Positions 34,046-51,156 of a stretch of 64,000 nt of DNA are shown here, one piece after another. Source of the stretch: Verrucomicrobium sp. GAS474 (GTDB lineage: Bacteria > Verrucomicrobiota > Verrucomicrobiia > Methylacidiphilales > GAS474). Within the stretch, counting starts at the first letter, position 1. Each line of letters opens with the position of its first letter. Under the pieces are notes generated by a model. It was not told the DNA's origin. It did not search any database and was given only the letters and a program-made list of their open reading frames with translations. The stretch covers positions 2,294,001 to 2,358,000 of the forward strand of contig NZ_LT629781.1 of assembly GCF_900105685.1 (NCBI RefSeq). Direction: 5' to 3'. The position numbers were made by a program, and so were the translations under genes.

Positions 34046-36565
34046 GTGAACAATATCAGGCATAAAGAGCAGCTTTTACAGCGTATTAGCGTAAAAAGCG
34101 GATCGCTTCTTTTTCTCTCCCTTTCTTTGAGCCTTCTTCTGGCCGCCGCTCCGTTCCGGGCGCTGGCGCAGACGCCTGCTCCCGCTCCGGGCGTGACGCC
34201 CGCGCCCGCGGCGATGCCTGCCCCCGCCGCGCAGCAGCAGGAACTCAACGTTCCCCAGGTCTCCGATTCCGAAAAGAAAACCGTCGATTCGACCGGCGCG
34301 CTGAAGCAGAAGGAATACGGCCCCACCGTCAAGGAAGTCGAAGTCGTCTACTTCAACGGCCAGCCCTCGGTCAACAAGACCGTCATCCTCTCCAACATGC
34401 GGACCACGGTCGGCCAGCCCTACTCGCCCGCCGCCGTCGAGGAAGACGTCAAGAACCTCTACGCCACCGGCCTCTTCGTCAACCTCCGCATCACCGACGA
34501 GCCCATGGGTGACGGCGTCAAGGTCGTCATCGTCGTCCAGCCGAAGCCCCTCATCAAGGACGTCGTCTTCATCGGCAACTCCAAGGTGAAGCAGAGCCGC
34601 CTCCGCAAGGAAGCGAAGACCAAGGTCGGCGAGCCCCTCAGCGAGCACCAGGTCGCCGAGGACCAGCAGAAGATCCGCGAATACTACCTTTCCAAGGGCT
34701 TCAATAACATCCAGGTCACCTACAAGATCGACGTGAACGAGGAGGCGAACCGCGCCGTCGTCACCTTCACCGTCAACGAAGGGGACAAGTCGTTCATCCG
34801 CGAGGTCGACTTCAAGGGGAACACCGCCTTCACTGAGAAGGAACTCCGCAAGATCTTCAAGAAGACCAAGAAGAAGAACTGGCTCTCCTTCATCAACAAG
34901 TCGGGCCTCTACAAGGACGACGAGTTCAAGGAAGACCTCGACAAGCTCAAGGAATTCTACCAGAACCACGGCTACATCGACTTCGAGGTCAAGGACACCC
35001 AGGTGACCTACCCCGAGTCGGGCGACATCCACATCGCCATCACGATCTTCGAGGGCATCCAATACAAGGTCGGCAAGCTCGAGCTCGACGGCGAGACCGT
35101 CTACGACGAGAAGACCGTCCGCAAGGCGCTCACCATGAGCGAGGGCGGCGTCTTCTCCCCGAAGGGCCTCGACGACAACGAAAAGGCGATCCGCGACCTC
35201 TACGGCAAGAAGGGCTACATCGACACCGAGATCAAGGTCGAGCGCACCGCCAATGTCGAGAGCGCCCAGATCGACCTCAATTACCACCTCGCCGAAGGGG
35301 CCCAGACCTACGTCGACAAGATCGTCATCCAGGGCAACACGACGACGAAGGACAAGGTCATCCGCCGCGAAATCGCCGTCGCCCCGGGCGAGGTCTACGA
35401 CAGCGTCCGCGTCGACGCCAGCAAGAAGCGCCTCGAGAACATCGGCTACTTCGAGAAGGTCGACATCACCCCCGAGGACACCTCGGTCCCGAATCGCCGG
35501 AACATGGTCATCAATGTCTCCGAAAAGAAGACCGGCAGCGTCACCTTCGGCATCGGCTTCAGCTCCGTCGACAGCCTCCTCGGCTTCGTCGAGCTGCAGC
35601 AGGGCAACTTCGACATCGCCAACTTCCCGAACTTCACCGGCGGCGGCCAGAAGTTCCGGAGCCGCGTCCAGTATGGCTTGACCCGCAAGGATCTCACCAT
35701 GAGCGTCGTCGAGCCCTGGTTCCTCGACAAGCCGCTCTCCCTCGGCTTCGACATCTTCGCCCACCAGCTGACGAACAACTACCAGACCAACCTCTGGGGC
35801 ACCGACAACTACGGCGCCTCCGTCTACCTCGCGAAGCAGCTGACCCCCTTCTGGACGGCCTCGATCAAGTATCAGCTCCAGCAGACCAGCCTTTACGACT
35901 TCGACGCCTCCGTCCCCGTCTACCTGCCCGGCCTCTACCAGGAGCGCGGCACCCGGTCGGAGAGCGGCGTCACCGGCACCCTCACCTACGACACCCGCGA
36001 CAGCGTCTTCCTGACCCGCCACGGTGAGAAGGTCTCCTTCTCCGCCATGGGCGCGGGCGGCCCGCTCTGGGGCCAGACGAACATCTATTCGATGAACGTC
36101 ACGGCGACGAAGTGGTTCCTCCTCCCCTACGACCTCATCTTCTCGGTGAACGGCGGGACGGGCGTCGTGAACCGCTACGGCGGCTCCGATCGCGTGCCGA
36201 TCTACGAGCGGCTCTTCCTCGGCGGTTCCCGCAGCGTCCGCGGCTTCGACAACCAGCAGGTCGGCCCGAAGTACGACACGGGCGAGCCCGCGGGCGGTCT
36301 GACCGACGGCTACGCCAACTTCGAGTTGACCTTCCCCATCATCGACCGCGTCCGCGGCGCCGTCTTCTACGACGCCGGGTTCGTCGACGCGAAATACGGG
36401 GAGTTCACCCACATCGGCGGCGACTACAATTCCGCCGTCGGCATCGGCCTCCGCCTCAATCTCCCCATCGGTCCCCTTCGCTTCGACTACGGTGTCCCTC
36501 TGAAGCATGACCAGTGGAATGGCGGCAGCGGCAAGTTTGCCTTTGACGTCGGCTACCAGTTCTAA
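34046..36565 (+). CDS. bamA: Outer-membrane assembly factor BamA
   Basis: The 839-residue Omp85 protein inserts beta-barrel proteins into the outer membrane. A long signal peptide (about 42 residues) and a Pro/Ala linker precede five POTRA domains (about 90-480), each with the GN/GN..T...L/V pattern (VFIGNSKVKQSRLRKE, VDFKGNTAFTEKELRK, IQGNTTTKDKVIRREI). The 16-strand barrel contains FLGGSRSVRGFDNQQVGP (lid-loop motif VRGF) and ends with Phe (VGYQF), the barrel signal. The GTG start has AGGA about 9 bases upstream. A GC-rich hairpin at 34006-34025 lies in the leader. skp and lpxD follow, as in many Gram-negatives. Confidence 0.96.
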   Translation: MNNIRHKEQLLQRISVKSGSLLFLSLSLSLLLAAAPFRALAQTPAPAPGVTPAPAAMPAPAAQQQELNVPQVSDSEKKTVDSTGALKQKEYGPTVKEVEVVYFNGQPSVNKTVILSNMRTTVGQPYSPAAVEEDVKNLYATGLFVNLRITDEPMGDGVKVVIVVQPKPLIKDVVFIGNSKVKQSRLRKEAKTKVGEPLSEHQVAEDQQKIREYYLSKGFNNIQVTYKIDVNEEANRAVVTFTVNEGDKSFIREVDFKGNTAFTEKELRKIFKKTKKKNWLSFINKSGLYKDDEFKEDLDKLKEFYQNHGYIDFEVKDTQVTYPESGDIHIAITIFEGIQYKVGKLELDGETVYDEKTVRKALTMSEGGVFSPKGLDDNEKAIRDLYGKKGYIDTEIKVERTANVESAQIDLNYHLAEGAQTYVDKIVIQGNTTTKDKVIRREIAVAPGEVYDSVRVDASKKRLENIGYFEKVDITPEDTSVPNRRNMVINVSEKKTGSVTFGIGFSSVDSLLGFVELQQGNFDIANFPNFTGGGQKFRSRVQYGLTRKDLTMSVVEPWFLDKPLSLGFDIFAHQLTNNYQTNLWGTDNYGASVYLAKQLTPFWTASIKYQLQQTSLYDFDASVPVYLPGLYQERGTRSESGVTGTLTYDTRDSVFLTRHGEKVSFSAMGAGGPLWGQTNIYSMNVTATKWFLLPYDLIFSVNGGTGVVNRYGGSDRVPIYERLFLGGSRSVRGFDNQQVGPKYDTGEPAGGLTDGYANFELTFPIIDRVRGAVFYDAGFVDAKYGEFTHIGGDYNSAVGIGLRLNLPIGPLRFDYGVPLKHDQWNGGSGKFAFDVGYQF

Positions 36566-36623
36566 CAGAGTCTGGAACCCGGTCGCAGGACCCTCAACCC
36601 CCCAGCACCCAATCTTTAATCAG

Positions 36624-37283
36624 ATGAAATTCCCCCGTACGCTCCGCCGCTTGGCCGTCGCCCTCCTCGTCTCTTCCGTCCTCGCGCTCCCCATCGCCGC
36701 CCACGCGGAGACGAAGCTCGCCATCGTCGACCTCCAGAAGGTCTTCGAGAACTACTACAAGAAGAAGGAAGCCGACGCCCGCCTCCAGGAAGTGGTCGGC
36801 CGCCTCCAGAAGGACAAGGAAGCGATGGTCGGCGATTACCAGAAGCTCGTCGACGAGACGACGAAGCTCCGCGACGCCGCCCAGGACACCACCCTCTCCC
36901 CCGCCGCCCGCGCCGAGAAGCAGAAGGCCTTCGAGACGAAGGTGCAGGACGTCCGCAACGCGGAACGGATCATGCAGGAGTTCAACACCACGAAGGGCCG
37001 CGCCGTCGAAGACCAGAAGATGCGTCTCCAGCAGGACATCGTGAAGGACATCACCGGTGCCGTGAACAGCGTCGGCAACCGCGACAAATACAATCTGATC
37101 CTCGACAAGGCCGGTCCCTCGGTCAACGGCACCCCCGTCGTCCTCTTCACCCAGGACATGAAGGACATCACCGACGACGTGATCAAGATCCTCAACGCCA
37201 CGCAGCCCGCCGCTTCCGCCGCCTCCTCCTCGGCTGCCGCGTCGACGGCGGCTCCCGCTCCGGCCCCGGCTGCCAAGCCCTAG
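36624..37283 (+). CDS. skp: Periplasmic chaperone Skp/OmpH family
   Basis: The 219-residue protein has a signal peptide (cleavage after AHA, about 25) and the OmpH opening ETKLAIVDLQKVFENYYKKKEADARL. The central coiled coil runs to about residue 150, then NLILDKAGPSVNGTPVVLFTQDMKDITDDVIKILN. A Ser/Ala/Pro-rich tail of about 25 residues is extra. It holds unfolded outer-membrane proteins for BamA. The start at 36624 gives a proper signal peptide 58 bases after the bamA stop. Confidence 0.93.
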   Translation: MKFPRTLRRLAVALLVSSVLALPIAAHAETKLAIVDLQKVFENYYKKKEADARLQEVVGRLQKDKEAMVGDYQKLVDETTKLRDAAQDTTLSPAARAEKQKAFETKVQDVRNAERIMQEFNTTKGRAVEDQKMRLQQDIVKDITGAVNSVGNRDKYNLILDKAGPSVNGTPVVLFTQDMKDITDDVIKILNATQPAASAASSSAAASTAAPAPAPAAKP

Positions 37284-37328
37284 GGTTGCCAGGGGTCTTC
37301 GTTCGTCAACGTCGGCGGGGTCGATGCG

Positions 37329-38378
37329 ATGAGTGTGTTTGCCCTGCGCGATCTGGCCGCCAAGGTCGGCGGCGAGATCGTCGCGAAGCCGGGCGATCAG
37401 GCCTCGGCGGCCTCGCTCCCCGATCTCCAGATCTTCGGCGTCGCCGATCTCGCCGGGGCGCGGGAAGGGCAGCTCTCCTTCCTCGGCAATAGCCGCTACC
37501 TCCAGGCCGCCCAGCGGACCAAGGCCTCGGTCATCCTCGTCTCCCCGGAAGACCGCCGGGTCGGCGGCTTCCCCTGCGCCGTCCTCGTGGTCGCCTCCCC
37601 CTCGCTCGCCTTCTCGCAGGTCGCCGCCCTCTTCGCGCCGGAGCCGATCCGGTTCCCCGTCGGCATCCATCCCACCGCCGTCATCGCCCCGGGCGTCGTC
37701 GTCGGGGAGGGGGCCTCGATCCAGCCCTACGCGGTCATCGAGGCGGGGGTCCGCATCGGCGCTCGGGCCGTCATCGGGGCGGGCAGTTACATCGGCCATG
37801 GCTCGCTCCTCGGCGACGATGTCTTCATCCACCCCCGCGTCACCGTCCGGGACAGCTCGATTCTCGGCAGTCGGGTGGTCCTCCACAGCGGCACTGTCGT
37901 CGGCTCGGACGGCTTCGGCTACGAGTTCAAGGGCGGCGCCCATCAAAAAATTCCGCAGACCGGCTACGTCCAGATCGACGACGATGTCGAGATCGGGGCC
38001 AACGCCGCGATCGACCGGGGCCGCTTCGGCCGCACCTGGATCGGGAAGGGGACCAAGATCGACAACCTGGTGCAGATCGCCCACAACGTCGTCGTCGGCG
38101 CCCACTCGATCATCGTCGCCCAGGCGGGGATCTCCGGCAGCACCATCCTGGGGAACCACGTCACCCTCGCCGGCCAGGCGGGCCTCGCCGGCCATCTGAA
38201 TATCGGCGACGGGGCGACGATCGCCGCCCAGTCGGGCATCGCGAAGGACGTCCCCGCGAAGACCGTCGTCGCCGGACGCCATGCGCTGCCGCTGCGGGAA
38301 AGCCTCAAGATCGAGGCGCTGCTGCGCCGCCTGCCCGAACTCTTCGGGCGCGTGAAGGCGATCGAGGAAAAGAAGTAG
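37329..38378 (+). CDS. lpxD: UDP-3-O-acylglucosamine N-acyltransferase LpxD
   Basis: The 349-residue lipid A enzyme adds the second acyl chain to UDP-acylglucosamine. The N-terminal uridine-binding domain shows GVADLAGAREGQLSFLGNSRYL. About nine hexapeptide repeats of left-handed beta-helix follow (from IHPTAVIAPGVVVGEGASIQPYAVIEAGVRIG). The catalytic His is in NLVQIAHNVVVGAHSIIV, and HSGTVVGSDGFGYEF is conserved. A C-terminal helix closes it. It follows skp by 45 bases; fabZ and lpxA, often next, are absent and tRNA-Val follows. Confidence 0.96.
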   Translation: MSVFALRDLAAKVGGEIVAKPGDQASAASLPDLQIFGVADLAGAREGQLSFLGNSRYLQAAQRTKASVILVSPEDRRVGGFPCAVLVVASPSLAFSQVAALFAPEPIRFPVGIHPTAVIAPGVVVGEGASIQPYAVIEAGVRIGARAVIGAGSYIGHGSLLGDDVFIHPRVTVRDSSILGSRVVLHSGTVVGSDGFGYEFKGGAHQKIPQTGYVQIDDDVEIGANAAIDRGRFGRTWIGKGTKIDNLVQIAHNVVVGAHSIIVAQAGISGSTILGNHVTLAGQAGLAGHLNIGDGATIAAQSGIAKDVPAKTVVAGRHALPLRESLKIEALLRRLPELFGRVKAIEEKK

Positions 38379-40701: not shown

Positions 40702-40731
40702 TTGACCGCAAACGGTACGTAACGGTAGAGT
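40702..40731 (+). promoter_or_regulatory. Candidate sigma-70 promoter of the secretin/Amuc_1100-like operon
   Basis: TTGACC (40702-40707), an 18-base spacer and TAGAGT (40726-40731). The spacer contains AACGGTA twice (40711-40717 and 40721-40727), a possible regulator half-site pair. The first gene of the operon starts 55 bases downstream. Confidence 0.55.
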
Positions 40732-40786: not shown

Positions 40787-41461
40787 ATGAACTGCCGTAT
40801 TCCCTCTCTGAGCGCCGTGGTTTTGACCCTTGCGGTCAGCGTCGGCGCTTTTTCCTCTCTTTTGGCTCAGAGCGACGACGTTTCGCTCAAGTTCAAGGAG
40901 GGAAGCGACGGCCTCAAGGCTGAATTCGTCGATCCCCCCTCGGGCGGTGCCGTCGGGGGTTCCACTGGGTACATCGATTCCCGGAAATGGCTGAAAATCG
41001 ACGCGCAGTACATGGTTAACACGCCTAACGAGGTCCTCCCGGAGGCCAAATTCAAGGTTTACGTCGAGGTCTATGACCTCCAGAAACCGCGGGACAGCCG
41101 GGGCGACAAGGTCGCCATCCTGACCGGCGAGGCGACCTACGTGAACCTCCCGAACGTCCCCTCGGGCCGGGAGCTCCATGTCACCTTCTTCGTCCATCCC
41201 TACACGATCAATCGCTTCGGCGGCGAGAAGAACTTCCATTTCGAGCCCCGCCAGAACATTCACATCGATGCTTACGCGGGTGAGCAGAAGATCGCCTCGA
41301 AGGACGCCTTCGATGTCCCCGCCGCCGACAAGAACTGGTATCAGTCCGAGTCGGAGCGGAAGATTTCCGGCATGATCCTGACCCGGGAGCAGAGCCCCTG
41401 GTCGATGTCCGACACGATCACCTATCCCCAGGCCAAGCTGAAGGCTTCGGCGGCGGAATAA
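40787..41461 (+). CDS. Amuc_1102-like periplasmic protein
   Basis: The 224-residue exported protein has a signal peptide (about 1-27, ending SLLAQS). The body is all-beta in pattern (FKVYVEVYDLQKPRDSRGDKVAILTGEATYVNLPNVPSGRELHVTFFVHPYTINRFGG). By position it corresponds to Amuc_1102 of Akkermansia muciniphila, first gene of the same five-gene order; I recall an immunoglobulin-like fold for that protein. The function is unknown. It is the first gene after the candidate promoter, with the PilM-like gene 24 bases downstream. Confidence 0.72.
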   Translation: MNCRIPSLSAVVLTLAVSVGAFSSLLAQSDDVSLKFKEGSDGLKAEFVDPPSGGAVGGSTGYIDSRKWLKIDAQYMVNTPNEVLPEAKFKVYVEVYDLQKPRDSRGDKVAILTGEATYVNLPNVPSGRELHVTFFVHPYTINRFGGEKNFHFEPRQNIHIDAYAGEQKIASKDAFDVPAADKNWYQSESERKISGMILTREQSPWSMSDTITYPQAKLKASAAE

Positions 41462-41485
41462 TCCTTTTTCCCGGTTCGGTTTTCC

Positions 41486-43201
41486 ATGGCTGCCACTTCT
41501 CCGATTCTCGCGCTCGATATTGGTTCCCACACGGTCAAATTCGGGGAGTTCACCGCAACGAAGGAGGGGGCGCTCACCCTCCACCGTTTCGGGACCGCTC
41601 CCCTCGGCCTCGATCCGAACAAGGACGAGAACCGCTATGCCGCCGTCACCGCCGCCCTCCGCCAGGTGACGGGGAAGGCGACGAAGAGCGGCCAGACCTT
41701 CTTCTCCCTCGCGGGCCATGCCGTCTTCATGCGCGGGGTGAAGCTCCCGCCCGTCGATGCGATGCAGCTCGACCAGATGATCGCCTTCGAGGCGCAGCAG
41801 ATCGTCCCCTTCCCCCTCAGCGAGGTGGTCTGGGACTTCCTCACCCTGTCGGGATCGGGCTCCGAGAAGGAGGCGATCATCGTCGCCGTGAAGACCGACC
41901 TCCTGGAGAGCGAGTACTCCGCCGTCCGGGGCGCGGGACTCCAGCCCTCCCTCGTCGACGTCGGCCCGCTCGCCCTCTACAACGCCTACCGCTACAACTA
42001 TACGCCGACCGACCACTGCGTCCTGCTGGTCGACATCGGCGCGCGTTCGACGAACCTCCTCTTCATCGAGGGGGACCGCCTCTACACCCGCATCCTCCCC
42101 CTCGCCGGGAACACGATCACGCAGACCATCTGCAACGAGTTCCAGGAACCCTTTTCGGTCGCGGAGAAGCTGAAGATCGAGCGCGGCGGCGTCCACCTCG
42201 GCGGCGGCTACGCCCAGCCGGACGACCGGGACAGCGCGCGCCTCTGGAAGCTCGGGCGGACCCTCCTCGGGAAGATCCAGACCGAGATCAACCGCTCCAT
42301 CATCTTCTACCGGAACCAGCAGGGCGGCAGCGCCCCGCAGCAGATCTACCTCACGGGCGGCACCTCGCGCCTTCCCTACCTCGATCATTTCCTGGCGGAG
42401 AAATTCTCCGTGCCGGTCGAGTTCTTCAACCCCCTCCGCAACGTCACCCTCGGCGGCGGCCTCGACCGGAACGGCCTTTCCCTCGCGGGACATGCCTTCG
42501 GCGAAGTCGTCGGCCTCGCCCTGCGCGGCACCGGCCCGACCCCGGCGGCGATCTCGCTCAAGCCGAAGTCGGTCTCCGAGTCGGAAAAGAACAAGAAGCA
42601 GGGGCCGGTCGTCGGCGCCGCGCTCTTCGCCCTCGCCCTCCTCTTCGCCGTCCCGGCGCTCGCCATCTACCTGAAGATGGGGGCCGTCGAGGAGACCGGC
42701 CAGGCCCTCGGCGGCAAGATCGCCGGCCTGAAGAAAGCCGCCGACGCGGTGATCCCCCTCGAAAAGGAGAGCGACGACCTCCAGCGCCGCTTCAAGGCCG
42801 CCGACCGCGTTCTCGAGCAGCGCGACCAGTGGCTCCGCTTCATGAACACGGTGAACGGGAAGCTCCCCGTCGGTGTCTGGATCACCCAGTTCACGCCGAC
42901 GAGCAACGGCCAGTCCCCCGACGCCGAGGGCGGCGACGTTCCCGCCCCCAAGGGGAAGAAGCCCGGCAAGGGGCCCCAGCTCACCCAGGTCGAGATCAAC
43001 GGCATCTGCGAGAAGGACCTCACCCTCGGCACGCTGACCGATTTCGTCCGCTCCCTCGCCGAGACCGGCCTCTTCGACCTGAAGCCCGACCAGGCCTCCA
43101 ACGCCATCGTGAAGGGCGATCCCACCGAGGGGAGCACCCAGCTCGGATGGAGCTTCGTGCTGAGCCTCAAGCTCAAGAACCCCATTGATCTCGCCCCCTA
43201 A
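41486..43201 (+). CDS. PilM-like actin-fold protein fused to a PilN-like membrane part (Amuc_1101-like)
   Basis: The 571-residue protein has a PilM/FtsA-type actin domain at residues 1-350: LALDIGSHTVKFGEF (phosphate 1), LLVDIGARSTNLLFIEGDRL (phosphate 2) and IYLTGGTSRLPYL (adenosine). A basic linker, one membrane helix (about 373-395, VGAALFALALLFAVPALAIYL), a coiled coil and a periplasmic ferredoxin-like part (VEINGICEKDLTLGTLTDFVRSL) follow. In classical type IV pili these are two proteins, PilM and PilN. Akkermansia Amuc_1101 occupies the same place in its cluster. The product would link a cytosolic ring to the periplasm. Confidence 0.88.
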   Translation: MAATSPILALDIGSHTVKFGEFTATKEGALTLHRFGTAPLGLDPNKDENRYAAVTAALRQVTGKATKSGQTFFSLAGHAVFMRGVKLPPVDAMQLDQMIAFEAQQIVPFPLSEVVWDFLTLSGSGSEKEAIIVAVKTDLLESEYSAVRGAGLQPSLVDVGPLALYNAYRYNYTPTDHCVLLVDIGARSTNLLFIEGDRLYTRILPLAGNTITQTICNEFQEPFSVAEKLKIERGGVHLGGGYAQPDDRDSARLWKLGRTLLGKIQTEINRSIIFYRNQQGGSAPQQIYLTGGTSRLPYLDHFLAEKFSVPVEFFNPLRNVTLGGGLDRNGLSLAGHAFGEVVGLALRGTGPTPAAISLKPKSVSESEKNKKQGPVVGAALFALALLFAVPALAIYLKMGAVEETGQALGGKIAGLKKAADAVIPLEKESDDLQRRFKAADRVLEQRDQWLRFMNTVNGKLPVGVWITQFTPTSNGQSPDAEGGDVPAPKGKKPGKGPQLTQVEINGICEKDLTLGTLTDFVRSLAETGLFDLKPDQASNAIVKGDPTEGSTQLGWSFVLSLKLKNPIDLAP

Positions 43202-43210
43202 TCCTCTTCC

Positions 43211-44134
43211 ATGAGCGCGAAAGTTTCCCTTACCCCCCTCCAATGGATCGCCGCCGGCGGCGCCCTCGGCATCGCCCTCCTCGGCGGCGCGGGGCTCTTC
43301 GTCCTTTCGGGCAAGCTCGGCGACGCCCAGGCGGCGCTGGAGCAGCAGTCGTCCGAGTACAAGGGCCTGGTCGGCCGCCGGACCTTCCCGAACGAGCAGA
43401 ACATCGCTACCCTCAAGGCCAACAACGAGGCGGTGAAGCAGGCCGTCGCCGTCGCCGAGAAGCGGCTCCGGGGCGACGACTCCGAGCTCGCCAAGATCAC
43501 CGAGCAGGACCCCATCGCCTTCAAGGAGGTCATCGCGGCCCAGGTCGAGAAGATCCGCCAGGCCGCGGCCAAGGGCGGCGTGAAGATCGAGCCCGCCGCC
43601 AACGAGTTCGCCTTTGCCGCCTACAAGAGCGGCAAGCCCTCCGGCGCTCCGGCGACGAAGGTCCTCGCCAAGCAACTCTTCGCGATCCGCGAGATCTCGA
43701 CGGCGCTCATCGATTCCCACATCGCGGCGATCACCGCCGTCCGACGGACGATGGACGAGGACAAGCCCGGCAATCCCTCGACCCTCGGCTCGTCGAGCCC
43801 CGAGGCGCTCCACGGCGTCATCACCCCCTCGGACGACCACCTCTACACCGTCTACCCTGTCGAGTTCGAGTTCACCGGGACGGAGCGTTCCCTGCGCGAC
43901 GCCCTCGCGGCGCTCTCCCAGAACGGGGCGATCTTCGTCCCCCGCTATCTCACCGTCTCCAGCCTCCGCGCGACGGCCCCCGCGCTCAACCAGCTCGAGA
44001 CCGACTCCCAGCAGACGAACGACAAGGGCAAGCGGCGCACCTTCATCGTCGCCATGGGCGGCGAGATGGTCCATGTCCGGCTCCGCGTCGACCTGATCGA
44101 CTGGGACGGCGGCGCCGCCCCCAAGAAAAAATAG
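43211..44134 (+). CDS. Amuc_1100-like (PilO-like) membrane protein
   Basis: The 307-residue protein has a short cytosolic start and one membrane helix (about 11-33, WIAAGGALGIALLGGAGLFVL). A long coiled coil (LGDAQAALEQQSSEYKGLVGRRTFPNEQNIATLKANNEAV) and a C-terminal mixed domain follow (LYTVYPVEFEFTGTERSLRDALAALSQ, RTFIVAMGGEMVHVRLRVDLIDW). Layout and gene place match Amuc_1100 of Akkermansia muciniphila, known as a TLR2-signalling envelope protein, and the PilO role of type IV pili. Sequence identity could not be measured. It starts 9 bases after the PilM-like gene. Confidence 0.8.
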   Translation: MSAKVSLTPLQWIAAGGALGIALLGGAGLFVLSGKLGDAQAALEQQSSEYKGLVGRRTFPNEQNIATLKANNEAVKQAVAVAEKRLRGDDSELAKITEQDPIAFKEVIAAQVEKIRQAAAKGGVKIEPAANEFAFAAYKSGKPSGAPATKVLAKQLFAIREISTALIDSHIAAITAVRRTMDEDKPGNPSTLGSSSPEALHGVITPSDDHLYTVYPVEFEFTGTERSLRDALAALSQNGAIFVPRYLTVSSLRATAPALNQLETDSQQTNDKGKRRTFIVAMGGEMVHVRLRVDLIDWDGGAAPKKK

Positions 44135-44167
44135 GCCCCCCCTTTCATCCTTTAAACGAAATCGAAC

Positions 44168-45187
44168 ATGGCAGCCGCAGCATCTTGGCATCGCGTCTTT
44201 CTCCTCTCCTCCCTCGTCCTCGTGATGGGCGTGGCGGGATGGGAGATCTATGATTATCCCGGTTCGGTCGGGGAGATCCGCACCCTCGGCACCGGCGGCG
44301 GCACCGGCAAGGCGCTTCCCGCGCTCAACCTGGAGAAGCTCGCGCCGAACCGGGGCGAGTGGGTTTCCCCCACGCCGTGGACCCTGCCCGAGGCGAAGAA
44401 CCAGCTGTTCACCGCCCGCCGCTTCATCTACTTCGCCGACACGAAGGCGGTGAAGCTCGTCGACGACACGGTCCTCATCGCCAACGTCCTTCCCCTCCAG
44501 TGGCTCATCCAGCACGGGATCGACTCGAGCGATCCCGATGTCGCGACCCTCGACACCGACGGCGACGGCTTCGATACCCTGGCCGAGTTCAAGGCCGGAA
44601 CCGACCCGCGCGATCCGAAGAGCCACCCCAGCTACTCCCAGCTCCTCCGCCTGAAGGGCGTCGACTCGAAGTCGTTCCACATGACCTTCGCCAGCCGCAA
44701 CGCGGGCGCGACCGCCGACGACGATCTCTACCAGGTCAACACCCCCGACGGGAAGAAGAGCTCCTACATGGTGAAGATCGGCGACTCCTTCGAGGGTTTC
44801 AAGGTCATCGCCTACCGCCAGAAAGAGGGCGACAAGAAGATCGGCACGATGACCGTCACCGGCGACATCTCCGAATTGGAGCTGAAGAAGGAGGGAACCG
44901 GCGAGACCGTCATCCTCCTCATCCGCGAGGACAAGGACGTGCCGAACCTCACCGCCACCTTCCTCGTCCTCCTGCCCAATTCCTACAACAAGCCCTTCAA
45001 TGTCGCCAAGGGCCAGGAATTCAGCATGGACGTCACCCCCTCCGCCTCGATTCCGGCGGAGACGCTCCACTACCAATTTGTTTCCTCCGACACGGCGGGC
45101 GCCTCCCTCGTGAACCCGGAAACCAAGCAGACGCTCGTCGCCCCGCAGTTGCAGCCGGATGAGTTGAAGCGGTTCAGTGCTAAGTAA
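44168..45187 (+). CDS. Amuc_1099-like exported protein with an EF-hand-type loop
   Basis: The 339-residue protein has an N-terminal hydrophobic anchor (about 8-26, VFLLSSLVLVMGVAGWEIY). A segment with WLIQHGIDSSDPDVATL leads into DTDGDGFDTLAE (residues 129-140), which has Asp at 1, 3, 5, Gly at 6 and Glu at 12 of a canonical calcium loop, then FKAGTDPRDPKS. This is the thrombospondin-type-3/dockerin-like repeat common in exported Verrucomicrobia proteins. The second half is beta-rich (SSYMVKIGDSFEGFKVIAYRQKEGDKKIG). It occupies the Amuc_1099 position between the Amuc_1100-like and secretin genes. Function unknown; calcium binding is inferred. Confidence 0.75.
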   Translation: MAAAASWHRVFLLSSLVLVMGVAGWEIYDYPGSVGEIRTLGTGGGTGKALPALNLEKLAPNRGEWVSPTPWTLPEAKNQLFTARRFIYFADTKAVKLVDDTVLIANVLPLQWLIQHGIDSSDPDVATLDTDGDGFDTLAEFKAGTDPRDPKSHPSYSQLLRLKGVDSKSFHMTFASRNAGATADDDLYQVNTPDGKKSSYMVKIGDSFEGFKVIAYRQKEGDKKIGTMTVTGDISELELKKEGTGETVILLIREDKDVPNLTATFLVLLPNSYNKPFNVAKGQEFSMDVTPSASIPAETLHYQFVSSDTAGASLVNPETKQTLVAPQLQPDELKRFSAK

Positions 45188-45250
45188 GCGGGACTGGTGT
45201 GATTTAAGTTGATTATTACTTTTTTAATTGAAAATATAGTTTCGCCCTAT

Positions 45251-47845
45251 ATGGAAAATATTGTGAGGCCTCTTTCTCGTTTTCGGATTCTTTTCTTCCT
45301 CTCCCTCGCGTCGGGGGCGGGAATCGCTTTTGCCTCGGCCCAGACCACGCCCGCCGTGGCGAAGGTCGAGCAGAGCGAGGAGGCCTATCGCGCCGAACGC
45401 ATGGATCAGATTCGGAAGGCGATCGACGCCGCCGACATCTTCGCGATGAACGGCGATTATGCGAAGGCGGAGGATCGTTACCTCTACGTCATCAAGAACG
45501 TCGACCGCAATTCCCCCATCGGCCAGTCGGCCTATAATCGGGCCGTCGTCAGCATCGCCCAGGTAAACATGCTCGAAGGGCAGGAGGCCGAAAAGAAGGG
45601 CGATTTCGATGGCGCCATTCTCTTTTACAAGAAGGCCCTGGCCGCCGATCCGTCCAACGAAAAGGCCGTTCGTCGCGCCCTGGCCCGCCTCGACGACGCG
45701 AAGCAGCACGACAAGATCGTCCGCCGCGACCCCGAGAAGTCGGAGAAGAACCCCGTCATCACCCCCGAGTTCAAGCAGCAGGTCGCCGACGTGCAGCGCC
45801 TCCTCTTCGAGGGGGACCGCTTCTTCGAGACCGGCCAGTATGCCGAGGCCGACGTCCGCTACCGCAACGTGCTGACGATCGACCCCTACAACAAGGCGGC
45901 CCAGCAGAAGATCGAGCGCCTCGAGAAATACCGCTACCACGCCGCCGAAACGGCGCGGGACGCCACCCGGAAGGAAGCGATGTACCAGGTCGACGCCCGG
46001 TGGACGGAGCGCGAGATCGCCGAGTCGAAGGCCAGCGCGCAGGATCCCGTTTCCGTCTCGGACACGAACATCGTCCGCATCCAGAAGAAGCTCAACGAGA
46101 TCATCATCGACAACGTCTCGTTCAACAACACCCCCGTCGACGATGCCTTCAGGCTCCTCGCCGAGAAGGTCCGCGCCGCCGATCCCGACAAGCAGGGCCT
46201 CAACTTCGTCCTGAAGCTCCAGCCCACCGTCGCCTCCGCCTCGCGGGGCGGCGATGCGGGCGCGCCCGCGAAGAAGGGGGCGGCCCCCGCTCCCGCTCCC
46301 GCCGCCGCGGCCCCGACGCCGGTCACCTTCACCCTGAACAACTCGTCCCTGGCCGAGGTGCTCCGCCTCCTCACCCAGCTCGCCCACATGCGCTGGAAGA
46401 TCGACGAGTACGCCATCAACGTCTACCCCGAGAAGGACGCGCCCGACGTCATGTCGACCCGCACCTTCGTCGTCCCCACCGGCTTCTTCCAGGCCCGCTC
46501 GACCGGGGCCGGGGCGCCCGCCTCCGGCACCGGCGGCAGCGACGCGAGCAAGGTTTCCTTCGACGTGAAGCAGCAGCTCATCGACCAGGGCGTCGACTTC
46601 CCCGCCGGGGCGACGGCGACCTTCCTCGCCGAATCGAGCCGCCTCATCGTCTCCAACACCTCCGAGCAGATCGACCTCATCGACGCCCTCATCCAGGCCC
46701 AGAGCAAGGAAGAGACCCCGATGGTCGAGATCGAGACGAAGTTTGCCGAGTTCACCGACGACGCGATGCGGGAACTCTCCTTCAACTGGGCGACGAGCTT
46801 CCAGGGGCCGACTTCGGCTTTGGCCCTCAATCAGGGGCTGAGCGGCGTTGGAGTCACTCCCACCACGCTGACTTCCTCCAGTAATAACAGCCTGCACAAG
46901 AACGAGCCCGGCGTGCTTGCCCAGACCGCCTTGCGGGGGCACAACGACATGAGCGGCAGCACGCTCGACAGCCTCCTCGCCGCGAACGGCGGGAATGCCG
47001 CCAGCCAGACCAATTCGGGCGCTTCCCTCCTGTTGGGTGGGACGATTCAGGGCCAGGGCGTCGCGCTTCTCGTGAACATGATCGACCAGCTCAAGGGGGT
47101 CGACCTCCTCCTCGCCCCGAAGGTGACGACGAAGAATGGCAGCAAGGCCCGCGTCGAGGTCACCCGGGAAATGACCTATCCGACCCGGGTTGAGAAGCCG
47201 AGCTACTCGAGCACCGGTTTAGCCTGGGATCAGAGCGAAGGTACCGCCCAAGTGATCGTGGTAACGCCCCCCGCCCTTTCCGAATTCAAGACGCCGAAGG
47301 CCGATCTCGGTGCCGATGTCGGCATCCAGATGGAAATCAAGCCGACGGCCTATCCCAATCGCCTGATCGATCTCGAAATTACGAAGCTGACGGTCGTCGA
47401 TTTTGAGGGATTCGTGAACTACGGCTCGACGATCAATCAGGGTGATTCTCTGACCTCGAACATCGATATTCTCTCGACCTACAAGATTCCGAAGCCGGTC
47501 TTCAACTCCCGCTCGTTGACGACCCAGCTGCAGGTCCTCGACGGTGAGACGATCGCCCTCGGCGGCCTCATCCGCGAGGAGACCGAGAAAATCAACGACA
47601 GCGTGCCGGTTCTCGGCGATATCCCCGTGGTGGGCCGCCTCTTCCAGAGCAAGGTCGATCGAAAGATCAAGAAGAACCTGATCGTCTTCGTCACGGCCCG
47701 GATCGTCCGGTCGACCGGCAAGCCGAAGTATGCCGAAACCATCGTGGCGGCCCCCGTGCCTGCCCCGGCGCAAACGCAGACGATGACGATGAACGCGGCG
47801 GCGACCCCCGCCGCCACCCCCGTCTCGGCGACGGCGACTCCCTAA
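45251..47845 (+). CDS. Secretin 1 (PilQ/GspD family, Amuc_1098-like)
   Basis: The 864-residue outer-membrane channel protein has a signal peptide (to about residue 30) and TPR-like helices (about 40-240, with NGDYAKAEDRYLYVIKN and TGQYAEADVRYRNVLTIDPYNKAAQQ). N-domains follow (FNNTPVDDAFRLLAEKV, TLNNSSLAEVLRLLTQLAHMRWKI). The secretin core begins at MVEIETKFAEF and includes LLAPKVTTKNGSKARVEV and the signature VPVLGDIPVVGRLFQSK. The C-terminus is Ala/Pro/Thr-rich. The ATG at 45251 follows an AT-rich 60-base stretch without a clear ribosome site; an in-frame TTG at 45209 would extend it by 14 residues. Confidence 0.9.
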   Translation: MENIVRPLSRFRILFFLSLASGAGIAFASAQTTPAVAKVEQSEEAYRAERMDQIRKAIDAADIFAMNGDYAKAEDRYLYVIKNVDRNSPIGQSAYNRAVVSIAQVNMLEGQEAEKKGDFDGAILFYKKALAADPSNEKAVRRALARLDDAKQHDKIVRRDPEKSEKNPVITPEFKQQVADVQRLLFEGDRFFETGQYAEADVRYRNVLTIDPYNKAAQQKIERLEKYRYHAAETARDATRKEAMYQVDARWTEREIAESKASAQDPVSVSDTNIVRIQKKLNEIIIDNVSFNNTPVDDAFRLLAEKVRAADPDKQGLNFVLKLQPTVASASRGGDAGAPAKKGAAPAPAPAAAAPTPVTFTLNNSSLAEVLRLLTQLAHMRWKIDEYAINVYPEKDAPDVMSTRTFVVPTGFFQARSTGAGAPASGTGGSDASKVSFDVKQQLIDQGVDFPAGATATFLAESSRLIVSNTSEQIDLIDALIQAQSKEETPMVEIETKFAEFTDDAMRELSFNWATSFQGPTSALALNQGLSGVGVTPTTLTSSSNNSLHKNEPGVLAQTALRGHNDMSGSTLDSLLAANGGNAASQTNSGASLLLGGTIQGQGVALLVNMIDQLKGVDLLLAPKVTTKNGSKARVEVTREMTYPTRVEKPSYSSTGLAWDQSEGTAQVIVVTPPALSEFKTPKADLGADVGIQMEIKPTAYPNRLIDLEITKLTVVDFEGFVNYGSTINQGDSLTSNIDILSTYKIPKPVFNSRSLTTQLQVLDGETIALGGLIREETEKINDSVPVLGDIPVVGRLFQSKVDRKIKKNLIVFVTARIVRSTGKPKYAETIVAAPVPAPAQTQTMTMNAAATPAATPVSATATP

Positions 47846-47866
47846 TACTTTCTTCCATCCCTCTCC

Positions 47867-50800
47867 ATGAACCTCGCCCGCCTCTTCCGCACCGCGCCGG
47901 CCTCGCTGGCTTTTCTGGCCCTGCCCTTGAGCCTTAGCTTGACGCTGACTCTGCCGGGAAGCCTCTCGACCGCGTTCGCCGCCGATCCGGCTTCCGCCGA
48001 TGTCGCCGCCGCGCTCCAGAACCAGCTGTCCCAGTATCAGGCCTCCCTCTCCCAGGCGGCCGATCTCGAGAAGCAGAAGGCTCCCGAGAAGGCCCGCGCC
48101 ATCTATTTGACCCTCCTCGGCACCGTGCAGCCCGCCGGGGCGACCGCGCCCGTCTACAAGCAGGCGGCCCAGGGCCTTTTCCGGACGAATTCCGGCCTGA
48201 TCCTTCAGGCCCGCGACCGGAACGACCTCGCCGCCATGGAGACCTACCTCCAGAGCAGCCTCGCCTACGCGCCGAACGACGCGGGCCTCAAGGCCTCGCT
48301 CGCCAAGGTCCAGGCGGCCCGGCAATACGCGGCGACCCAGTCGGCCGCGCCCGCCGCCGTGGCGGCCGCCGCGCCCGCCTCGTCGGCCGCGACGGCGCTG
48401 GCGCAGGCCAGCGACGCCGAGAAGGCCGGTCAGACCGATGCCGCCCGCACCGCCTACCTCTCGATTCTCAAGACGAGTTCGCCGAGCGGAGACAACGCTG
48501 CCGTCTACAAGCAGGCCCAGCTCGGCCTCTTCCGGACGAATTCGGCCCTGATCGTTCAGGCCCGCAGCCGGGGCGACCTCGCCGGGATGGAAACCTACCT
48601 CCGCAGCAGCCTCGAATATGCCCCGGACGATGCCGGGTTGAAGGACGCCCTCGCCAAGGTGCAGGCGGCCCAGGCCCAGGCCCGCTCCACGGCGGCGAAT
48701 GCCCAGCCTCCGCTTCCCACGGCCACGGCAACGATCACTCCCGCCACCGCGGCGGCCACGGCCCCCGCTGACAGCAGCCCCGCCGGCCTCGCCGCGGCCC
48801 GCGAAGCGATCCAGAAGGACAAGGAACTCCGCCAGCTCCTTCCCACCCTCGACCAGGCAGCCCAGCTCGAGGCTCAGGGTCAGTGGGACAAGGCCCGGCA
48901 GATTTATCTGACGGCGCTGACCTCGCTGACGCCCGCCCCCGCGACCGCCGCCGCCTATGACCGGGCCGAGCAGGGGCTCCTCCGGGTCAACGCCCAACTG
49001 ATCGACCAGGCGCTCGCCAAGGGCGATCTCGCCACGGCCGAGATGCTCCTCCAGAACAGCATCGTCTACGCTCCCGACGACCGGAGCCTGAAGGCCTCCC
49101 TGGCCAAGGTCGAGGCCGCCCGACGCGATCCTCAGGACACCCAGACCTTCGTCAACACCGCCAACACCCCGGCCCTCGCCGAGAAGGTCGACCGCGTCGA
49201 GTCGCTCTTCGCCGAGGCCGAGCAGGCTCGGAAGACCGGTCAATACGATCTGGCGACGACCAAGCTCAAGGCGATCCTCCAGATCGACCCGTCGAACGAG
49301 GCGGCCCAGGGGCGGCTTGCCAAAATTTCGGCTGAAAAAGAGGCCTACGCCGCCACGGCGATCTCGGCGAATCGCGAGCGTCGCCTCCGCGAGGTCGAGG
49401 GGAAGTGGAACGTCCCCGTCCAGGGCCCGACGAACCAGCCCGGTCCCGACGCGAACGGGGGGCCGATCACCCGCTCGAACGACTTCAAGATCACCCAGAA
49501 GCTGAAGTCGATCATGATTCCCCAGCTCGACCTCTCCGAGCAGAGCCTCCAGAGCGCGATCGACTTCCTCAACGACAAGGTGCGCCAGCTCGATCCCGAG
49601 CGGATCGGGGTCAACTTCATTCCCCGTCCCGACGCCCTCCGCCAGTCGAAGCCGATCACCCTCAGCCTCCGCAACATCCCGCTCGGCGAGGCGATCCGCT
49701 ACATCGCCCAGAACGCGCAGGTGAAATACAAGGTCGATCAGGCTGCGGTCTTCTTCATCCCGCTGACCGACTCGACCGAGAATCTCCTCAGCCGCGACTT
49801 CGTCCTCCCGCCCGGCTTCTTCAGCTCGGCCTCGGCCGGAAGCGCGGCAGGCGGCGATAGCGGATCGACCCGCCGCCGCGGCGCCGCCGCCGACGCCTCC
49901 GCCGCCGCGAGCGGCGGTTCCCAGGACGTGAAGGAACAGCTGATCGCCAAGGGAGTCGAGTTCAACGCCGAAGGGGCGAACGCCACCTACCTCCCCGCCG
50001 CGAGCGTCCTCCGGGTCCGCAACACCTCCTCGCAGCTCGATCTCCTCGAGGCGATCGTCAACGCGACGAGCAAGCAGACCCTGATGGTCAACATCGAGGC
50101 GAAGTTCGTCGAGATCAACCAGACCGACCTCAACGACCTCAGCGTCGACTGGTCTCTCTCCCCGCTGACGGGGGTGATGAAATTGAATTCTCCCTTCTTT
50201 GCGACCTCGTTCCGGGGAGCCAACGGGATGAACGCCAACAACCTCGACTACCTTGAGAAAATCGCCGGGACCGGTTCGGGCGGGAGTTCCTCTTCGACAG
50301 GATTGGCCACAGGGGTACGCAATCAGGCTCTCTTCAGCGGCCTCCTGAGCTGGCAGAAGTATCTGGCGGCGCTGAACGCCCTCTCCCAGAAGACGAGCAC
50401 CGACCTTCTCTCCAGCCCCTCGCTTCGGGCGAAGACCGGTAACGTCTCGAAGATCGCGATTAGCCGGACGTTCTTCTATCCGACCCGGTATGATCCGCCG
50501 ACCGCGCTCTCGATCTCGGTCCCCAGCGGCAGCGCCAGCGGCACGACGCTTATTCCTCCTCCGGCGGTCATTCCCTATGTCCCGACCGAGTTCGATCACC
50601 GGGAAATTGGCGTCGAGTTGGCGGTGACGCCGACCGTCGGCGGTGACAATCGAACGGTCGACCTGAGCTTCGATACGATCCGGACGACCGACTTTGAAGG
50701 GTTCATCAATTACGGTTCTCCGATCCAGATTCCGGCCGCGAATCAAGAACCGGTGACCCTTTCCGACAACGTCCTGCTCCAGCCGGTCTTCGCGATCCGC

Positions 50801-51067
50801 AATGTGCAGACGAAGGTGGCGCTGCGGGACGGCTACACCGTCGTCCTCGGCGGCCTGATCCGGGAAGATATCCAGACGATCAACGACAAGGTGCCGTTCC
50901 TCGGCGACCTGCCCGCCGTCGGCCGGTTCTTCCAGTCGAAGGCGAAGCAGAGCGTGAAGCGCAACCTGCTGATCTTCGTCAATGCCCGGATCGTGCGGCC
51001 CGACGGGCAGCCGCTCAATCCGCTTGAGAGCGACGCCCCCCCGGCGACCTCGACGGCGGCGCGGTAG
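47867..51067 (+). CDS. Secretin 2, long paralogue with three N-terminal repeats
   Basis: The 1066-residue outer-membrane channel protein has a signal peptide to about residue 38. Three repeats of about 92 residues follow (about 62-152, 178-269, 328-421), each running ...A.LE..G..DKAR.IYL..L...P......VYK.A..GL.R.N..LI.QA...DLA..E..L..S..YAPDD..LKASLAKVEAA, joined by Ala/Pro-rich linkers. A fourth half-repeat lies near 446-490. N-domains (LSLRNIPLGEAIRYIAQNAQV) and a secretin core (NIEAKFVEINQTDL, LLSSPSLRAKTGNVSKI, VPFLGDLPAVGRFFQSK) complete it. It starts 21 bases after secretin 1 and probably shares its transcript. Confidence 0.9.
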   Translation: MNLARLFRTAPASLAFLALPLSLSLTLTLPGSLSTAFAADPASADVAAALQNQLSQYQASLSQAADLEKQKAPEKARAIYLTLLGTVQPAGATAPVYKQAAQGLFRTNSGLILQARDRNDLAAMETYLQSSLAYAPNDAGLKASLAKVQAARQYAATQSAAPAAVAAAAPASSAATALAQASDAEKAGQTDAARTAYLSILKTSSPSGDNAAVYKQAQLGLFRTNSALIVQARSRGDLAGMETYLRSSLEYAPDDAGLKDALAKVQAAQAQARSTAANAQPPLPTATATITPATAAATAPADSSPAGLAAAREAIQKDKELRQLLPTLDQAAQLEAQGQWDKARQIYLTALTSLTPAPATAAAYDRAEQGLLRVNAQLIDQALAKGDLATAEMLLQNSIVYAPDDRSLKASLAKVEAARRDPQDTQTFVNTANTPALAEKVDRVESLFAEAEQARKTGQYDLATTKLKAILQIDPSNEAAQGRLAKISAEKEAYAATAISANRERRLREVEGKWNVPVQGPTNQPGPDANGGPITRSNDFKITQKLKSIMIPQLDLSEQSLQSAIDFLNDKVRQLDPERIGVNFIPRPDALRQSKPITLSLRNIPLGEAIRYIAQNAQVKYKVDQAAVFFIPLTDSTENLLSRDFVLPPGFFSSASAGSAAGGDSGSTRRRGAAADASAAASGGSQDVKEQLIAKGVEFNAEGANATYLPAASVLRVRNTSSQLDLLEAIVNATSKQTLMVNIEAKFVEINQTDLNDLSVDWSLSPLTGVMKLNSPFFATSFRGANGMNANNLDYLEKIAGTGSGGSSSSTGLATGVRNQALFSGLLSWQKYLAALNALSQKTSTDLLSSPSLRAKTGNVSKIAISRTFFYPTRYDPPTALSISVPSGSASGTTLIPPPAVIPYVPTEFDHREIGVELAVTPTVGGDNRTVDLSFDTIRTTDFEGFINYGSPIQIPAANQEPVTLSDNVLLQPVFAIRNVQTKVALRDGYTVVLGGLIREDIQTINDKVPFLGDLPAVGRFFQSKAKQSVKRNLLIFVNARIVRPDGQPLNPLESDAPPATSTAAR

Positions 51068-51156
51068 CGCCTCTCTTCCCGATCGCGTTGAAGATGACGG
51101 GGCAAGGATTTCGATCCTTGCCCCGCGTCGTTTCATCTGCCTGAATCGGATCGACG

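Follow-up and report, generated by a model that had tools for sequence, protein, structure and literature searches.

The window analysed here is a 64,000-nucleotide stretch of the Verrucomicrobium sp. GAS474 genome, positions 2294001-2358000 of a single 3.76-Mb contig (99.9% complete). Positions 40787-51067 of this window hold six plus-strand genes that make up a MUL2-type operon, a kind of locus already published from Akkermansiaceae and other Verrucomicrobiota (PMC13174399, PMC5332112). The six open reading frames (ORFs) encode proteins of 224, 571, 307, 339, 878 and 1066 amino acids (aa) and are separated by 24, 9, 33, 63 and 21 bases; these coordinates bear out an earlier note on this DNA, which had described six same-strand genes with gaps of 9-63 bases. 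The 63-base gap, between genes 4 and 5, is counted from an ATG at 45251 and becomes 21 bases if a TTG at 45209 is the start of gene 5. GC content at the third codon position is 81-94% in the operon genes, which favours real coding, and chance ORFs are excluded because many further genomes carry orthologues of all six genes in this order. The one promoter proposed by the earlier note was not demonstrated: our promoter scan returned a sole sigma-70-like site (40702-40731), matching the expectation from shuffled sequences (1 found versus 1.0 expected).

NCBIfam assigns genes 1-5, in order, to the families Amuc_1102, Amuc_1101, Amuc_1100, Amuc_1099 and Amuc_1098, and gene 6 to the Amuc_1098 family again. 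Gene 1 (40787-41461) encodes a predicted secreted, Amuc_1102 (MUL2A)-like protein with an N-terminal hydrophobic segment (NF042424, E=3.7e-9; 36 bits against an equivalog cut-off of 55). Gene 2 (41486-43201) encodes an Amuc_1101 (MUL2B)-like PilM (PF11104 PilM_2, 2.6e-37; NF045709, 3.8e-145, 485/650 bits) that also scores above the TIGR01175 (PilM) cut-off. It carries a transmembrane (TM) segment at residues 371-402 and a PilN-like C-terminal part, where 6 of 18 orthologues gave a PilN match, the best at 1.1e-4. The Amuc_1100-like gene 3 (43211-44134; NF038287, 8.6e-28, 98/180 bits) has an N-terminal membrane anchor and stands in the PilO/GspM position. Gene 4 (44168-45187), which is Amuc_1099-like (NF042425, 1.9e-28), alone exceeds its equivalog cut-off (100 versus 50 bits), and its PilP position is assigned from gene order only. 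The first Amuc_1098-family secretin, with N-terminal tetratricopeptide repeats (TPR), is encoded by gene 5 (45209-47845; 864 aa from the ATG or 878 aa from the TTG; NF042912, 4.7e-153, 511/750 bits; PF00263, 1.3e-27). Gene 6 (47867-51067) encodes the second, which fits this family slightly better than gene 5 does (NF042912, 4.3e-158, 528/750 bits; PF00263, 7.7e-28). Because all scores but that of the Amuc_1099-like protein fall below the equivalog cut-offs, the operon is a homologous locus encoding distant relatives, not a set of certified equivalogs.

Comparison with solved structures led to the same identities. The orthologue profile of gene 1 matches the Amuc_1102 structure (PDB 7dsz) at 3e-53 and that of gene 3 matches the Amuc_1100 structures (PDB 6lad/6kny/6laf) at 3e-72, while single-sequence queries of genes 1 and 3 gave no match, so that the orthologue profiles were needed. 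Since both profile alignments include Akkermansiaceae members, these matches indicate one family and not an independent detection from the window. Together with NCBIfam they uphold the identities and the order, Amuc_1102-1101-1100-1099-1098, that the earlier note had given. For gene 4, an AlphaFold model built from a two-sequence alignment had a predicted local distance difference test (pLDDT) score of 33 and was discarded. The gene 4 protein does contain a putative EF-hand-like loop, DTDGDGFDTLAE, at residues 129-140 (window 44552-44587). The pattern DxDxDxFxxxxE occurs in 26 of 37 gene 4 orthologues versus 0 of 2321 other ORFs, and the Amuc_1099 protein of an A. muciniphila-type genome (L048 5363-6376) bears such a loop as well; we found no mention of it in the open-licence literature searched.

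The tandem second secretin is a genuine new variant of this described operon type. We found no report of a doubled secretin in the open-licence literature, and its novelty is provisional. The earlier note had described the operon as extended by a second secretin of 1066 residues. The second secretin stands; its length arises because an 82-aa N-terminal unit occurs three times (from residues 70, 187 and 337; window 48074-49120; 50-65% identical), and the counterpart in a same-genus relative has 800 aa, 266 residues fewer. The notion of an extension needs correcting, since doubling is usual in the order and recurrent elsewhere. A scan of the collection with a single protein query found one relative only. 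A 1954-aa open frame considered for the two secretins is not a fusion, its length being both gene lengths summed plus one. In a same-genus genome the first secretin is split over two overlapping frames (L026 9851-12416), by a frameshift or an assembly error.

Surveyed across Verrucomicrobiota, the gene order is kept in many genomes. Within the window's order, tandem Amuc_1098-family pairs lie behind genes 1-4 in the genus of GAS474 and in families f83-f87; most sampled families of the order have such pairs, the methanotrophs excepted. In f88, of the same order, the two secretin copies are on different contigs. Elsewhere in the class such pairs follow genes 1-4 in five families (f7, f11, f15, f17 and f95). 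An f93 genome also has a tandem pair; the stretch read there holds no homologue of genes 1-4. In f8 and in Akkermansiaceae, which we equate with f4, one copy is linked and one or more are unlinked. The methanotroph family of the window's order gave no Amuc_1098-family match (0 of 13 genomes); among the other 45 genomes, 35 had at least two matches, 2 had one and 8 had none, counts in which many assemblies are fragmentary and one match may cover only part of a gene. Every family sampled from this order has the family secretin except the methanotrophs, which lack it.

In a secretin tree built on the last 560 residues, both copies of each main tandem group adjoin each other and not their counterparts elsewhere; gene 6 falls in the second-copy (T2) clade of its order. 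The approximately unbiased (AU) test rejected a single clade of all second copies (p=9.7e-5), and also one uniting the second copies of both main groups (p=0.0018). Because the tree and the test reject one shared duplication, tandem doubling recurred at least twice, and probably more often, unless gene conversion along the stem branches has produced the same picture. That proviso is an explanation in itself, a single ancient duplication followed by gene conversion, and the TPR parts of Akkermansiaceae secretins do show mixing of a conversion-like kind within this family. Given the test results, and given that the copies within each main group form their own clades without mixing, we consider it improbable.

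Akkermansiaceae also provide evidence that two such secretins may work from one platform. The A. muciniphila-type genome (G111) has one PilM match and two Amuc_1098-family secretins, both over the NCBIfam cut-off: a linked one of 907 aa at L048 2568-5291, equal to the published length of Amuc_1098 (907 aa; PMC4960237), and an unlinked one at L049 7147-9672, beside which there is no second set of genes 1-4. In three Akkermansiaceae genomes (L048-L053) we compared trees of the TPR parts and of the pore parts of both secretins, linked and unlinked. The TPR-part tree rejects a clade of linked copies (p=0.006). In the pore-part tree, by contrast, that clade is supported (97/95) and pairing within a genome is rejected (p=0.02). 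The TPR parts go with the genome and the pore parts with the copy, the pattern expected from gene conversion. Identity between the two A. muciniphila-type secretins reaches 63% in the best TPR block, against 24-41% for blocks beginning at residue 401 or later. Most simply read, both TPR parts must fit the same partner. The pattern suggests that a single inner-membrane platform serves two channels.

Alternatively, the products of genes 5 and 6 might assemble together into a single heteromeric ring, gene duplication having made them an obligate pair as in some other paralogous rings. The two genes are adjacent and presumably co-transcribed, both retain the secretin core motif, and the doubling has recurred with the copies remaining tandem-paired across families, all of which would fit such a ring. 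However, their identity in 100-residue blocks is about 19-48%, low for interchangeable subunits, the secretin genes are unlinked in Akkermansiaceae, and to our knowledge all solved secretins are homo-oligomers. We therefore consider a mixed ring unlikely.

The earlier note had found no PilB, PilT, PilC or pilin gene and proposed a secretin machine of unknown cargo. The absence is confirmed for the window, which has no match to PilB/PilT (PF00437), PilC (PF00482) or the pilin N-terminus (PF07963), but does not extend to the genome, and a machine lacking pilus motor and pilins is not supported. Two adjacent PilB-like ATPases and a PilC are encoded at 3.069-3.073 Mb of the same contig, and two PilT-family ATPases, both over the curated TIGR01420 cut-off, at 1.698-1.701 Mb. 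The genome also has one prepilin peptidase and 39 type IV pilin-like N-termini, and a genome search with PF11104 found exactly one PilM, operon gene 2. In substance this is one of the situations that the earlier note had named as contradicting its reading, pilus genes elsewhere with the operon as their only alignment genes, except that those genes are scattered and do not form one locus. The PilB pair scores just under the PilB and GspE equivalog cut-offs, so its assignment rests on an ATPase tree and on the presence of a separate type II secretion system (T2SS) cluster. In this tree, from which some loci dropped out, both PilB copies group with copies of other MUL2-bearing genomes and apart from GspE, the first with a copy from the A. 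muciniphila-type genome. Orthologues of the pair occur in MUL2-bearing genomes, including the A. muciniphila-type one.

On the likeliest reading, the operon supplies a type IVa-like pilus machine, whose genes are scattered, with its only alignment and outer-membrane module. It is probable that the six genes form such a module, of the MUL2 type, with motors encoded elsewhere and two secretins sharing a platform. In a survey of 141 genomes of the class (Amuc_1098-family secretin matches at E up to 1e-40), secretin and PilT were both present in 105 and both absent in 14, with the secretin alone in 5 and PilT alone in 17. Twelve of the 14 double absences are the genomes of one methanotroph family (12 of 12) and the other two are 0.9-Mb genomes, so the double absences are not many independent losses. 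We take this family to be Methylacidiphilaceae because the three genomes tested (3/3) carry a methane/ammonia monooxygenase.

Several points weigh against this interpretation. The co-occurrence of secretin and PilT rests largely on one loss, that of the methanotroph family. Additionally, five genomes (G278, G425, G434, G456 and G113) keep family secretins without a PilT match, so that retraction is not strictly needed; those PilT-less, secretin-bearing genomes that were searched still have PilB-type ATPases. Among 18 orthologues each, Pfam gave no PilP match for gene 4 and no convincing PilO match for gene 3. No major pilin was identified among the 39 pilin-like N-termini, and it is possible that every one of these genes works for the T2SS or encodes an unrelated pseudopilin. 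Lastly, the TPR parts of genes 5 and 6 are only 19-25% identical; since homogenisation of the Akkermansiaceae kind is absent here, we infer platform sharing in GAS474 from the single PilM. Three genomes with no PilT match (loci L039, L044 and L045) keep tandem secretins, two of them without a recognisable gene 1 and one of these also without gene 3.

Some of these observations would suit a pilus-free attachment or uptake apparatus that uses neither PilB/PilT nor pilins: the window has no motor or pilin gene, five genomes retain secretins without PilT, and no major pilin is defined. We hold this to be rather doubtful, as PilB, PilC, PilT, prepilin peptidase and pilin-like genes are all in the genome with no PilM other than that of the operon, the PilT-less genomes searched retain PilB-type ATPases, and a methanotroph genome that was tested lacks both MUL2 and the PilB pair, having a single distant ATPase only. 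Least probable is that the gene 6 secretin merely lies in the operon and serves another machine, such as T2SS-like export, for although secretins serve many machines and the genome encodes another GspD-like secretin besides its T2SS, gene 6 is nearer to Amuc_1098 (E=4e-158) than to GspD (7e-32), the GspD-type secretins of the genome form a separate, distant clade with one already placed in the T2SS cluster, and the pairing with genes 1-5 is kept across families.

A T2SS role for the operon itself was rejected because the T2SS has its own cluster at 2.087-2.100 Mb, with GspE, GspF, GspD and pilin-like genes. The operon shares a related secretin and the platform logic with the T2SS (GspCDEFGHIJKLM); unlike it, no GspE, GspF or pseudopilins accompany the operon secretins in the window, and both fit Amuc_1098 far better than GspD. 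Similar to the PilMNOPQ systems of Pseudomonas and Myxococcus, the operon has a PilM above the TIGR01175 cut-off, a PilN-like part and a secretin, with PilB, PilC and PilT in the genome. In contrast to those systems, PilM and the PilN-like part are in one protein, the pilus genes are scattered, genes 3 and 4 lack a convincing PilO or PilP match, and the secretins are doubled and TPR-bearing.

A pilus machine of this kind might be arranged as follows. The PilM domain of gene 2 would lie in the cytoplasm, joined by the TM segment to a PilN-like periplasmic part, with genes 3 and 4 taking the places of PilO and PilP and gene 1 supplying a secreted accessory protein (Amuc_1102/MUL2A). The two TPR-bearing secretins would most likely make two separate, homo-oligomeric outer-membrane rings. 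Through their TPR and N-domains both rings may use one kind of inner-membrane platform in common, docking in turn or on separate copies of the machine. The PilB pair, PilC, the PilT pair, the prepilin peptidase and pilins, encoded elsewhere on the chromosome, would join the physical assembly. If the parallel with Akkermansia holds, the substrate would be glycans, which the machine may bind and help to take up.

Flanking features were also noted. Between gene 6 and a downstream ABC transporter gene lies a perfect 10-bp inverted repeat with a 6-base loop (GGGGCAAGGA-TTTCGA-TCCTTGCCCC, 51099-51124), read in the intergenic sequence; it has no T run and is a possible transcript end. Upstream, at window 34214-38378, genes that by eye resemble BamA, a Skp/OmpH-type chaperone and LpxD suggest an outer-membrane assembly neighbourhood.

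MUL2 was described as amuc_1099-1102, found across Akkermansiaceae, often conserved in other families of Verrucomicrobiales and less so in Chthoniobacterales, and is reported, from A. muciniphila genetics only, to be needed for acquisition of glycan (mucin); a synteny figure legend names a 'secretion system channel protein' among its neighbours (PMC13174399). The five families of A. muciniphila Amuc_1098-1102/MUL2 recur in unchanged order in the GAS474 operon, a PilM-like Amuc_1101 and a TPR-bearing secretin among them. The operon differs in its second family secretin in tandem and in that most of its proteins are under the NCBIfam equivalog cut-offs. It also apparently comes from Methylacidiphilales, an order in which MUL2 was not detected (PMC13174399, 2026). 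If the order surveyed here is that of the paper, our result refines this non-detection (PMC13174399).

These results place Amuc_1100 and its neighbours, which have been studied as host-signalling proteins, as the alignment module of an old and widespread pilus-type machine whose motor genes lie at other sites of the genome. Additionally, the repeated doubling and the second secretin of the A. muciniphila-type genome raise the question of whether one pilus platform serves two outer-membrane channels. We tentatively suggest, as a possibility more than an expectation, that one type IV pilus platform with two different gates, or with one gate of two paralogous subunits, arose repeatedly in Verrucomicrobiota and has gone unrecognised in Akkermansia muciniphila, where the second secretin may be specialised, for example, for glycan uptake and not for passage of the pilus.

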